A program made the translations under genes and the position numbers. Below are positions 36,884-52,855 of a stretch of DNA of 64,000 nt, piece by piece (within the stretch, counting starts at the first letter, position 1; every line of letters starts with the position of its first letter). The stretch is from Streptomyces sp. NBC_01210. GTDB taxonomy: Bacteria; Actinomycetota; Actinomycetes; Streptomycetales; Streptomycetaceae. Location of the stretch: contig NZ_CP108549.1 in assembly GCF_036010325.1 (NCBI RefSeq), positions 2,480,001 to 2,544,000 of the forward strand, given 5' to 3'. The notes beneath the pieces are model-generated. The model ran no database searches. It was not told where the DNA came from and saw only the letters and a list, made by a program, of their open reading frames with translations.

Positions 36884-38942
36884 GCTGAAGCGGTTCGGCA
36901 GGGGGAAACTGCCGCGCGCCGCGCTCGTCGCGATCCTGCTGCTGCCGCTGCTGTACGGCGCCCTGTACCTGTGGTCCTTCTGGGATCCGTACGGTCAGCT
37001 CGAACGTATACCCGTCGCGCTCGTCAACGACGACAAGGGAGCCACCGCTGCCGGCAAGAAGGTCGCGGCCGGCGACGAGATCACCAAGGGCCTGCTCGAG
37101 AGCAAGGTCTTCGAATGGCACGAGGTGAGCGCGACCGAGGCCCGCAAGGGTGTCGAGGACGGCACGTACTACCTCTCGCTGACCATGCCGCAGGACTTCA
37201 GCAAGCGCATCGCGTCCAGCTCCGGCGAGTCTCCCGAGACCGGCGCCCTTCAGGTGCGTACGAACGACGCCAACAACTACATCGTCGGGCAGATCTCGCG
37301 GACGGTCTTCTCCCAGGTCCGCACCGCCGCCTCGACCAACGCCTCCCGATCCTTCCTCGACCGGATCTTCATCTCCTTCTCCGACATCCATGACCAGACA
37401 GAGAAGGCCGCGAAGGGCGCCGACCAGCTCAAGGACGGGGTCGGCAAGGCGAAGAAGGGCTCCAAGGACCTCGCGGACGGGCTGAAGGACGCCAAGAACG
37501 GCAGCGGCAAACTGGCCGGCGGCCTCTCCAAGCTCAACAAGGGCGCGAGCGATCTCGAGACCGGATCCAAGCAGGTCTCCCAGGGCACCCAGAGGCTTGC
37601 CGACAGGGTCAACGGGATAGCCGCCGACGTCCGTCCGTACCTCAAGGACAACGGCAGGACGATCGGTGACACGGCCCGGCTGGTCGCCGACTCGTCCCAG
37701 GCGGTCCGCCACAATCTCGACATCCTCGTGAAGAGGGCCCCCGGCTCGGCCGTCCTCGCCCACAAGTCGGCCGACGAGCTGAGCGCGATCTACAAGACGC
37801 ACTGCGAGGACGCGCTGCTGCCCGACCCGACCGTCTGCCCCGCGCTGAAGCGCGCCAAGATCACGGCGGCCGATGTCGCCAAGATCGCCGACGACGTCAA
37901 CGCTCTGGTGAAGGACAACAAGGGCGAGCTGAAGAAGCTGGACGGCCACCTCGCCGATCTGCAGAAGAAGGCGACGGACCTCGCCAAGCGCTCACCGCGT
38001 CTCGACGAGGACCTGGAGTCGGCCGTCGGCCAGATCAATGAGCTCAACTCGGGCGCGAAGAAGGTCGCTCAGGGAGCGGACAAGCTGCACACCGGGCTGG
38101 GCAGCGCCAAGACGGGCTCCACCGATCTCGACACCGGCGTCGGCAAGCTCAAGAAGGGCGCCGGCAAACTGGACGGCGGGCTCTTCAAGCTCGCCGACGG
38201 TTCGACCGAGCTGGCCGGTGGACTGAACAGCGGCGTGGACAAGATCCCCGACTACGACAAGAAGGACCGCGACCAACGCACCGAGGTGATGGCCGACCCC
38301 GTGAAGCTGGCCGGCCAGTCCCTGCACAAGGCGCCCAACTACGGCACCGGCTTCGCTCCGTACTTCATCCCGCTCTCCCTCTGGGTGGGCTCGATGGTGG
38401 CGTACATGATCATCCAGCCGCTCAACCGGCGGGCACTCTCCGCGGGCACCTCCGCCTGGCGGATCGCGCTGGCCGGCTGGCTGCCCGTCGCCGCGATCGG
38501 TCTGCTGCAGGTCGGCGCGCTCATGTCCGTACTGCACTGGGGCCTCGGCCTGCAGATGGCGTACGCGGCCGGCACGATCGGCTTCCTCGCACTGGTGACC
38601 TGCTGCTTCGCTGCGATCATCCAGTGGCTGAACGCGCGCTTCGGAGCCGCGGGCCGGATCCTTGTACTGGCGTTGCTGATGCTCCAGCTGACCTCGGCCG
38701 GCGGCACCTACCCGGTGGAGACCAGTCCGGCGTTCTTCAACGCGATCCATCCCTACCTCCCGATGAGCTACGTCATCGACGCGCTGCGCAGGCTCATCAC
38801 GGGCGGCGGCCTCGGCCCGGTGTGGCAGGCCTGCGCGGTACTGGCCGCCTTCACCGCGGGCGCGATCGCGCTGACTGCCGTGTCCGCACGGCGCAAGCAG
38901 GTGTGGACACTGGACCGTCTGCACCCCGAGCTGAGTCTGTGA
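36855..38942 (+). CDS. YhgE/Pip-type ABC-2-like membrane protein
   Basis: A 695-residue membrane protein of the YhgE/phage-infection-protein type. One N-terminal helix (LVAILLLPLLYGALYLWSFW, residues 23-43) is followed by ~470 external residues containing two blocks of GAxxLxxGxxxxxxG heptad-like repeats (about residues 185-255 and 395-455), then five helices near the C-terminus typical of ABC-2 permeases. ATG 36855 has GAGGAGGGG upstream. A partner for the preceding degenerate ATPase and probably an exporter or envelope-remodelling protein; substrate unknown. Followed by the TetR gene with overlap or near-overlap. Confidence 0.88.
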   Translation: MRSPKLAALELKRFGRGKLPRAALVAILLLPLLYGALYLWSFWDPYGQLERIPVALVNDDKGATAAGKKVAAGDEITKGLLESKVFEWHEVSATEARKGVEDGTYYLSLTMPQDFSKRIASSSGESPETGALQVRTNDANNYIVGQISRTVFSQVRTAASTNASRSFLDRIFISFSDIHDQTEKAAKGADQLKDGVGKAKKGSKDLADGLKDAKNGSGKLAGGLSKLNKGASDLETGSKQVSQGTQRLADRVNGIAADVRPYLKDNGRTIGDTARLVADSSQAVRHNLDILVKRAPGSAVLAHKSADELSAIYKTHCEDALLPDPTVCPALKRAKITAADVAKIADDVNALVKDNKGELKKLDGHLADLQKKATDLAKRSPRLDEDLESAVGQINELNSGAKKVAQGADKLHTGLGSAKTGSTDLDTGVGKLKKGAGKLDGGLFKLADGSTELAGGLNSGVDKIPDYDKKDRDQRTEVMADPVKLAGQSLHKAPNYGTGFAPYFIPLSLWVGSMVAYMIIQPLNRRALSAGTSAWRIALAGWLPVAAIGLLQVGALMSVLHWGLGLQMAYAAGTIGFLALVTCCFAAIIQWLNARFGAAGRILVLALLMLQLTSAGGTYPVETSPAFFNAIHPYLPMSYVIDALRRLITGGGLGPVWQACAVLAAFTAGAIALTAVSARRKQVWTLDRLHPELSL

Positions 38943-51381: not shown

Positions 51382-52230
51382 ATGCGCAACCCCGTCGGCG
51401 GCCATGTCCCCGTGGCCGGCGGGCTCGCCACGATCGGTCTCGGTTACGCCCGTGAGCTGGAGGCGGAGACCGTCCAGGTCTTCGTCGCCAATCCGCGCGG
51501 CTGGGCGACACCCACCGGAAACCCGGCGCAGGACGAGCAGTTCCGCGCCGAGTGCGCGGCCGAGGGGATCTCGGCGTACGTCCATGCGCCGTATCTGATC
51601 AACTTCGGCTCGCACACCGAGGCGACCGTCGAGAAGTCCGTGGAATCCCTGCGGCACTCGCTGCGCCGGGGCCGGGAGATCGGCGCGCTGGGTGTGGTGG
51701 TGCACACCGGCTCGGCGACCGGCGGCCGCTCCCGCGAGGTGGCGCTGGCGCAGGTACGGGAGCGGATGCTGCCGCTGCTCGATGAGCTGACACACGACGA
51801 CGACCCGTTCCTGCTGCTGGAATCAACGGCAGGACAGGGTTCCTCGCTCTGCTCGAGAACCTGGGACTTCGGCCCGTACTTCGAGGCGCTGGACTCTCAT
51901 CCCAAGCTGGGCGTCTGCCTGGACACCTGCCACATCTTCGCGGCGGGACACGATCTGACCGGCCCGCACGGGATGGCGCAGACTCTGGATCTGCTGGTGG
52001 ACACCGTCGGCGAGGGGCGACTGAAGCTGATCCACGCCAATGACTCCAAGGATGTGGCCGGCGCCCACAAGGACCGCCACGAGAACATTGGCTCGGGCCA
52101 TATCGGCGAGGAGCCGTTCCGGGAGCTGATGCTGCACCCGTCGACCGAGGGCATACCGCTGATCATCGAGACGCCCGGGGGCAAGGAGGGGCACGCGGCG
52201 GATGTGGTGCGGCTGAAGAAACTGCGCTGA
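51382..52230 (+). CDS. nfo: Deoxyribonuclease IV (endonuclease IV)
   Basis: A 282-residue zinc-dependent AP endonuclease of the AP2 TIM-barrel family, cutting 5' to abasic sites. Metal ligands are in YVHAPYLINFGSH, VVVHTGSATG, LLLESTAGQGSS, VCLDTCHIFAAGHDL, LIHANDSKD, DRHENIGSGHIG and IIETPGG, all the family motifs. Begins MRNPVGGHVPVAGGLATIGL. ATG 51382 is 5 nt after the kinase stop, so it may be read through from it. Confidence 0.95.
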   Translation: MRNPVGGHVPVAGGLATIGLGYARELEAETVQVFVANPRGWATPTGNPAQDEQFRAECAAEGISAYVHAPYLINFGSHTEATVEKSVESLRHSLRRGREIGALGVVVHTGSATGGRSREVALAQVRERMLPLLDELTHDDDPFLLLESTAGQGSSLCSRTWDFGPYFEALDSHPKLGVCLDTCHIFAAGHDLTGPHGMAQTLDLLVDTVGEGRLKLIHANDSKDVAGAHKDRHENIGSGHIGEEPFRELMLHPSTEGIPLIIETPGGKEGHAADVVRLKKLR

Positions 52231-52260: not shown

Positions 52261-52277
52261 ATACCCCCTAGGGGTAT
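52261..52277. promoter_or_regulatory. CsoR-type operator upstream of the DUF4396 gene
   Basis: ATACCCCCTAGGGGTAT: 7-nt arms ATACCCC and GGGGTAT around CTA. This is the form of operators bound by CsoR-family copper sensors in actinobacteria. It lies 56 nt before the ATG of a His-rich membrane protein. No csoR gene is in the window. Confidence 0.7.
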
Positions 52278-52333
52278 GTGGTTGTCGCTGTCGACAGGAA
52301 CCAGGAACCGCTATCTGGCTTTGGGGGCTTCTC

Positions 52334-52855
52334 ATGCAGCGCGACACCCACACCGGACACGCTCACCACACAGAGCACGCTCACCACGCCCATGAAGAGC
52401 ACGCCCACGGCATCGGCACGGTCAGCTGGTCCATGGCAGCTCAGGCGACTCTCCACTGCCTCACCGGCTGCGCCATCGGCGAGGTCCTGGGCATGGTGCT
52501 GGGCACCGCGTTCGGCTGGGGCAATGTGCCGACGATGATCCTGGCGATCGTGCTGGCGTTCTTCTTCGGCTACTCACTCACGCTGCGCGGCGTCCTCAAG
52601 GCCGGCGTCGGCTTCAGCACCGCGGTCCGGGTCGCACTGGCCGCCGACACCCTGTCCATCGCCGTGATGGAGCTGATCGACAACGGCGTGATCGCGCTCT
52701 GGCCGGACGCCATGGACGCACAGCTCTCGGACACGCTGTTCTGGGGCGCCCTCGCCGCCTCGCTCGTCCTCGCCTTCGTGGTCACCACACCCGTCAACAA
52801 GTGGATGATCGGCCGCGGCAAGGGCCACGCGGTGGTCCACCAGTACCACCACTGA
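52334..52855 (+). CDS. DUF4396 membrane protein with a His-rich N-terminus
   Basis: A 173-residue protein. The first ~28 residues are extremely His-rich (HTGHAHHTEHAHHAHEEHAH), a likely metal-binding arm. Four helices follow: a first with ATLHCLTGCAIGEVLGMVLG, then TMILAIVLAFFFGYSLTL, then ALAADTLSIAVMELIDNGVI and ALAASLVLAFVVTTPVNKWM, typical DUF4396. ATG 52334 has GGGGG 7 nt upstream. With a CsoR-like operator upstream, a copper-related role is inferred. Cys pair in LHCLTGC could add metal ligands. Confidence 0.85.
   Translation: MQRDTHTGHAHHTEHAHHAHEEHAHGIGTVSWSMAAQATLHCLTGCAIGEVLGMVLGTAFGWGNVPTMILAIVLAFFFGYSLTLRGVLKAGVGFSTAVRVALAADTLSIAVMELIDNGVIALWPDAMDAQLSDTLFWGALAASLVLAFVVTTPVNKWMIGRGKGHAVVHQYHH

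Follow-up and report, generated by a model that had tools for sequence, protein, structure and literature searches.

Accounts of bacterial copper defence usually name a sensor, the chaperone CopZ and the pump CopA. The 64,000 nucleotides of Streptomyces sp. NBC_01210 analysed here (the window; NZ_CP108549.1, positions 2,480,001 to 2,544,000) contain a gene for a membrane protein of the DUF4396 family that lies shortly behind a palindrome of the copper-repressor type, which raises the question of whether this protein belongs to the same defence. The original prediction had read the locus as a copper-handling membrane protein under a CsoR-type operator. In the literature searched we found no published function for DUF4396; the family occurs in one paper, whose accessible text mentions it in a genomic context next to a cluster for metal resistance (PMC7760498).

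A CsoR-type palindrome precedes the DUF4396 gene

The operator and the gene are placed as follows, the first called from sequence, genome count and conservation, the second from Pfam PF14342 and AlphaFold2.

52261..52277, no strand assigned: CsoR-type (type 2) operator ATACCCC-CTA-GGGGTAT, ATACCCCCTAGGGGTAT
52334..52855, + strand: DUF4396 membrane protein, candidate copper-handling protein of 173 aa with four predicted helices

The palindrome is separated by 56 nt (52278-52333) from the ATG at 52334, exactly as predicted. Type 2 operators are 5'-TAC-N9-GTA-3' inverted repeats with C/G tracts, from which CsoR is released by Cu(I); the streptomycete CsoR consensus is ATATACCCCTNAGGGGTATAT, and its TAC/GTA repeat is required for binding (Tan et al., PMC3902906, accessible text). 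Such a repeat, with its C/G tracts, is found at 52262-52276 (TACCCCCTAGGGGTA). The same source names in its available part three targets of Streptomyces lividans CsoR, csoR, copZA1 and copZA2, and the copZA2 operator (ATACCCCCTAGGGGTAA) differs from the window site solely at the last of these 17 bases. Being of the same operator type as this regulon, the window site belongs, as far as its sequence tells, within the S. lividans CsoR operator set. None of the three named targets is a DUF4396 gene, and the window gene would add a further kind of target. The available parts of PMC3902906 and PMC6414726 name no DUF4396 gene among Streptomyces CsoR targets; the latter lists SCO1044, SCO3280, SCO4137, SCO6710 and SCO7265 as further predicted targets, by locus number only.

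One PF02583 (CsoR-family) gene only is present in the host genome. The best match of its product is the S. lividans CsoR structure 4ADZ (E 2.1e-58), with the stretches YCID and RHC identical, and we take these stretches to contain the copper-binding Cys, His and Cys of CsoR. By this comparison the host protein is the orthologue of S. lividans CsoR and the host encodes a CsoR of the Cu(I) type. A similar site, TACCCACGAGGGGTA, precedes the host csoR gene itself.

When the 64-kb window was scanned with up to three mismatches allowed, a single match was returned, with 0 mismatches, against an expectation of 0.82 from shuffles. The 9.2-Mb genome has the exact pattern at two places only, and 0 times when the pattern is read backwards. 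The second place lies 93 nt 5' of the first ATG of a copZ-like ORF (HMA domain), which is followed by copA (E1-E2 ATPase); the original prediction had named this genome search as a check, and its outcome supports the prediction. In contrast, the looser pattern TACCCN5GGGTA is found at 6 genomic places versus 8 for its control, and since this is chance level genome-wide, the strength of the site rests on its conservation. Three of the looser palindromes, at C1:878859, 1946964 and 2116147 (L013-L015), lack full A/T flanks.

The site stays with the gene across the genus

Of 150 genomes sampled from the genus of the window, 105 contain a match to the protein (in G080 only a distant one, in G142 a broken copy); the other 45 have no match, so the protein is dispensable there. 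We scanned 117 same-genus copies, the window's own included, from 350 nt before to 60 nt after the start, and called a site where TAC-N9-GTA was present with at least 10 of its 12 fixed bases. The site is found upstream in 105 of the 117 copies at this threshold, in 105 also at 11 and in 98 at 12, where the frequency in the rest of these loci would give 0.7-0.9 of 117 copies (0.94 at threshold 10). The reversed control pattern was met twice in all loci together at threshold 10 and 0 times at higher thresholds. On these counts the link between operator and DUF4396 is not due to chance. Among the 12 copies that lack the site, one (L022) has the palindrome with a single changed arm base.

Nine loci with weak or broken matches (L133-L141) stand outside the 117, and so do four weak or partial match rows, three from G085 and one from G049. 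Of the nine, the broken copy L141 has a TACN9GTA site, and a scripted scan found no DUF4396 match in L135, L136, L138 and L139. No site was seen before L133, L134, L137, L140, L153, L159 and L160, the scan having reached little upstream DNA for all of these except L140 because it began inside longer ORFs.

Copies were called syntenic if the upstream TIM-barrel gene was found. The site accompanies 55 copies with this neighbour and 50 without it, L043 among the latter keeping the downstream neighbours. The two groups part on a tree: the best clade for syntenic copies comprises 54 tips and holds 53 of the 60 syntenic copies, and that for non-syntenic copies comprises 47 tips, all non-syntenic, out of 57. 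The flanks drift beyond about 10 bases on either side of the palindrome, which itself stays fixed. In the consensus of the 55 syntenic copies with the site, the palindrome lies between TTGnGG and TACGGT, 17 nt apart, a spacing that may be read as a promoter spacer; the window copy is weaker than this consensus at both promoter-like hexamers, and a promoter scan of it found none.

The palindrome might be the operator of a neighbouring gene, or a chance one, and DUF4396 unrelated to copper. The looser pattern, no commoner than its control, would suit such a reading, which has to explain why the site stays with DUF4396 under different upstream neighbours and in other classes, and why the nearest upstream gene, on the same strand, ends at 52230, before the site. 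Loci of other phyla bear on the same question.

CsoR-type sites and CueR-type boxes beyond the genus

In a second class of the phylum, 82 of the 299 genomes encode some form of DUF4396. In the named relatives, which are the best 80 of 562 loci, a CsoR-type site precedes the gene in 44, with actinobacterial examples in Rubrobacteraceae, Thermoleophilaceae, Lentzea and Mycolicibacterium; together with the 105 same-genus copies this shows the site to be conserved before DUF4396 in relatives, the absence of which the original prediction had named as refuting it. A contig labelled as a Bifidobacterium breve MAG (L232) carries a Thermoleophilia-like DUF4396 with a CsoR-type site, and its label is probably a binning error.

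Among the same best 80 of 562, 18 non-actinobacterial loci were chosen by hand from record titles, including Microvirga, Sinorhizobium, Brevundimonas and Nitrospirae MAGs. One of the 18 has a CsoR-type site. Seven of them have a CueR-type box (ACCTTCC-N7-GGAAGGT with no more than one mismatch) within 350 nt, where 0.26 would be expected from 6 matches elsewhere in the same loci and the reversed control gives 0; it lies within 350 nt in none of the 62 actinobacterial loci (best 80 of 562). Within 600 nt the box is present in 10 of the 18, the expectation of 0.26 covering 350 nt only. For comparison, the CueR signal is ACCTTCCC-(5)-TGGAAGGT and the HmrR signal almost identical (Permina et al., PMC1526738, accessible text). 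With CsoR-type sites in Actinomycetota and CueR-type boxes elsewhere, two unrelated copper regulators have apparently been placed before the same gene. The conservation within the genus and the CueR-type boxes that replace the site in 10 of the 18 loci of other phyla leave very little room for a chance palindrome or for the operator of a neighbouring gene, and the DUF4396 gene is very probably regulated by CsoR.

Copper genes as neighbours and as fusion partners

In the window, the gene is flanked by a TIM-barrel protein upstream and by molybdopterin-domain oxidoreductase, ferritin-like and BFD-like proteins downstream; copper-marker queries against the 64 kb gave no match, so this copy does not lie beside copA. 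Copper-gene neighbours are seldom seen in the genus (6 of 117 copies, flanks of about 1.5-3 kb). Among the named relatives (best 80 of 562), 28 have a CopA-, CsoR- or CopZ-like gene in the fetched flanks of up to 5 kb, a count in which some neighbours may serve other metals, since the CopA query would match other metal ATPases too. DUF305, which is also found in the copper-binding protein CopM (PMC11836926, accessible text), is in the fetched flanks of 23 of the best 80 of 562. Altogether, 64 of these best 80 of 562 have a CsoR-type site, a CueR-type box, a copper-gene neighbour or more than one of these; the other 16 show no such site, no such box and no CopA/CsoR/CopZ-like gene in the flank that was fetched.

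DUF4396 is also found in 33 plasmid records. We opened eight plasmid regions, two of them without annotation, and in one of the eight csoR-copZ-copA lie beside DUF4396. The order in this region, from a Kineococcus radiotolerans plasmid, is DUF305, a metal-sensitive (CsoR-type) regulator, an HMA protein, a heavy-metal ATPase and DUF4396, with a small hypothetical gene on the opposite strand just before DUF4396. On the Streptomyces plasmid pFRL6 (220292-234717, L171) the region holds a CopC-named gene, a cation transporter, DUF6153, DUF305, a glycosylhydrolase-named gene and DUF4396, and a cytochrome c oxidase assembly gene is present as well. DUF6153 and DUF305 precede DUF4396 on pFRL5 too (L172) and are possibly further copper genes.

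Fusions were sought in 52 loci (L259-L306 and four earlier ones), several of which are the same place twice and two of which have no DUF4396 match. CopA and DUF4396 share one ORF only in L212 (the same as L287) and L246, two Thermoleophilaceae MAG contigs. In the former (L212:2619-6449, on an 857-kb contig) an ORF of 1276 aa runs through HMA, E1-E2 ATPase, HAD hydrolase and DUF4396 and continues past the latter into a C-terminal extension; in L246 (70-2361) a contig-cut ORF of 763 aa joins ATPase, hydrolase and DUF4396 on a 3.3-kb contig that begins inside copA. A YtkA-like domain, considered for the C-terminal extensions of L164 and L212, was dropped as Pfam gave no match at E <= 0.001. In L288 and L192 (the same as L294) copA lies directly upstream of DUF4396 in another frame. 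No separate site was found at L212, L246, L288 or L192, and none is expected of a DUF4396 gene that shares an ORF or an operon with copA. DUF4396 very probably shares a regulon with CopA and CopZ, is adjacent to them in some genomes and is fused to CopA in two MAG contigs. It differs from CopA itself, a P1B ATPase with E1-E2 ATPase and HAD domains, in that Pfam finds no ATPase, HAD or HMA domain in the window protein, which is therefore a separate small protein and not a member of the P1B-ATPases. The CueR-type boxes, the copper-gene neighbours and the fusion agree with the central claim of the original prediction, and it is likely that the DUF4396 protein handles copper.

Handling could mean supply, that is, uptake or the passing of copper to membrane cuproenzymes. 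The development of Streptomyces needs copper (PMC6414726, accessible text), and the pFRL6 region combines a cytochrome c oxidase assembly gene with a CopC-named gene. We nevertheless consider supply very unlikely, because the neighbours, where present, are CopA-, CopZ- and CsoR-like genes (best 80 of 562) and because of the regulators. CueR targets are made under copper excess. The targets of CsoR, which is released by Cu(I), are made under copper excess as well (PMC3902906, accessible text), which argues against a role in supply.

Conserved residues of the predicted four-helix protein

DUF4396 (PF14342) is the only family over the Pfam cut-off, at 150.3 bits versus a cut-off of 27, with MadL below threshold (E 0.18). 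AlphaFold2, run with a 62-row alignment, gave a mean pLDDT of 85.3 and a pTM of 0.73, with low confidence at both ends; the predicted helices are residues 32-59, 64-89, 94-122 and 134-163, with a short one at 165-169. The model agrees with the four helices predicted earlier and places the pair Cys42 and Cys46 in the first of them. Within the gene we distinguish four elements, the first from translation, unstructured and of low confidence in the model, and the others with counts among the 58 rows of what we call the copper clade.

52334..52426, + strand: His-rich N-terminal arm (residues 1-31; ten of the first 28 are His)
52454..52483, + strand: H41-C42-x3-C46-x3-E50 in helix 1 (H41, C42 and E50 in 58/58)
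52646..52684, + strand: D105...M112-E113...D116-N117 in helix 3 (D105, M112 and E113 in 58/58; D116 and N117 in 57/58)
52823..52852, + strand: C-terminal tail G164-H165-x3-H169-x2-H172-H173 (G164 in 58, H165 in 56, H169 in 57 and H172 in 53 of 58)

The alignment (A4) retains 62 of 74 non-redundant rows, eight with doubtful starts or fragments and four plasmid rows being left out. The copper clade comprises 58 of the 62, at under about 78% identity, and is defined by L43 and C46, so that these two are invariant by construction. S108, P153 and N155 are also invariant in the 58 rows, and the tail pattern GHxxxHxxH is kept. By their spacing, C42, C46 and E50 are put on one face of helix 1, if it folds as predicted; on helix 3, D105, M112-E113 and D116 may line up as a stripe. 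The four remaining rows (L137, L153, L159, L160) all have H41 and C42, whereas D105 is found in two, M112 in one, E113 in one and E50 in none. HC alone is therefore not indicative of copper, PF14342 is broader than the copper clade, and the Pfam family may comprise two or more functional groups.

Mean charges per sequence over the 62 rows (K+R against D+E) are 1.95 and 0.23 for loop 2, 0.10 and 1.44 for loop 3 and 3.18 and 0.34 for the C-terminal tail. By the positive-inside rule, loop 2, the C-terminal tail and both protein ends are cytosolic. The C-terminus of CopA is cytosolic, and fusion of DUF4396 at that end agrees with such an orientation.

The arm was counted correctly in the original prediction (about ten His in 28 residues), which needs one correction here: across 117 same-genus copies, with starts chosen by script, the His count of the arm ranges from 0 to 24 (median 9), and some relatives, L149, L163 and L167 among them, have a short arm with few His. 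The number being so variable, the arm is helpful at most, and the conserved candidate ligands lie in the helices and the C-terminal tail. These observations bear on the possibility that the protein is a membrane-anchored buffer or store, whose His tails and helix thiols would hold excess copper until CopA removes it, with no transport. An arm with a median of nine His, a conserved His tail and induction through a repressor that answers to copper excess would all suit a store. A store would, however, have just two Cys and an arm that some relatives nearly dispense with, and it would have no need of the intramembrane acids and Met that are invariant in 58 rows; we regard it as rather unlikely. 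Csp proteins, which store copper in the cytosol, are soluble Cys-rich four-helix bundles, and the window protein, with two Cys and hydrophobic helices, is not one of them.

A fold search found no convincing relative, transporters included, which leaves a transport reading without structural support. A stand-alone secondary Cu(I) exporter independent of CopA, for instance a proton-coupled dimer, would nonetheless make sense of a four-helix protein that conserves Cys, Met, Glu and Asp inside the membrane, and of the 52 named copies (best 80 of 562) whose fetched flanks lack CopA-, CsoR- and CopZ-like genes. The CopA fusion and the K. radiotolerans plasmid order with CopZ and CopA point instead to a partner, and with no transporter among structural relatives at a convincing score such an exporter appears unlikely.

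A possible role beside CopA

The reading that we favour is that of a Cu(I)-binding four-helix membrane protein of the CsoR regulon that works with CopA in efflux. From the site and its conservation, the neighbours, the fusions and the conserved residues, all obtained by computation, we infer CsoR binding, Cu(I) binding and hand-over or transport in the following way. At low copper, apo-CsoR on the palindrome would block the promoter. A rise of cytosolic Cu(I) would load CsoR, which would leave the DNA, and the gene would be expressed together with csoR and copZ-copA. The product would span the inner membrane with four helices and keep both ends in the cytosol, where its His-rich tails may gather copper; intramembrane Cys42, Cys46 and Met112, with Glu50, Asp105 and Glu113, would bind Cu(I), and the protein would hand it to CopA or help to move it across the membrane. 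The explanation as a whole stands somewhat better than an even chance, and the part that makes the protein a partner of CopA on the efflux side is about equally or slightly less secure. The protein may conduct copper, hand it over or hold it.

A precedent for such a partnership is found in Mycobacterium. The PacL family, which we take to be DUF1490, differs from the window protein, for which a Pfam scan up to E 1 gives DUF4396 and sub-threshold MadL only and for which four helices are predicted. PacL proteins are small membrane partners and metallochaperones of P-type ATPases (PMC13043812, accessible text) and, as small membrane proteins tied to a metal ATPase and bearing a metal-binding tail, are the nearest precedent in mode of working.

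DUF4396 probably adds a new component to the copper system of CsoR/CueR, CopZ and CopA. More tentatively, and with somewhat less than an even chance in our estimate, the copper clade could be an unrecognised Cu(I)-conducting family: a four-helix bundle with a Cys-x3-Cys and Met site and conserved acids, which would receive Cu(I) from cytosolic His tails and, next to CopA, pass it on to the membrane or through it. The family would even have been fused to the pump in some Thermoleophilaceae, and would answer to CsoR in Actinomycetota and to a CueR-type regulator in Alphaproteobacteria. If the favoured explanation is true, a widespread family without an assigned function would join copper defence as a membrane component; the host genus is a model one, whose development is controlled by copper, the natural CopA fusion suggests the partner, and C42, C46, E50, D105, M112 and E113 are named residues for testing.

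DUF4396 proteins occur further afield. A relative with 53% identity is encoded at 37335-37769 of MT835530.1, a record labelled 'Bacteriophage sp.' from human faecal samples that may be a mis-assigned contig. Distant members (L133, L134, L137, L153, L159, L160 and L177) come from the window's genus, other Actinomycetota and a haloarchaeal plasmid, and the gene in L177 adjoins a formate/nitrite transporter gene.
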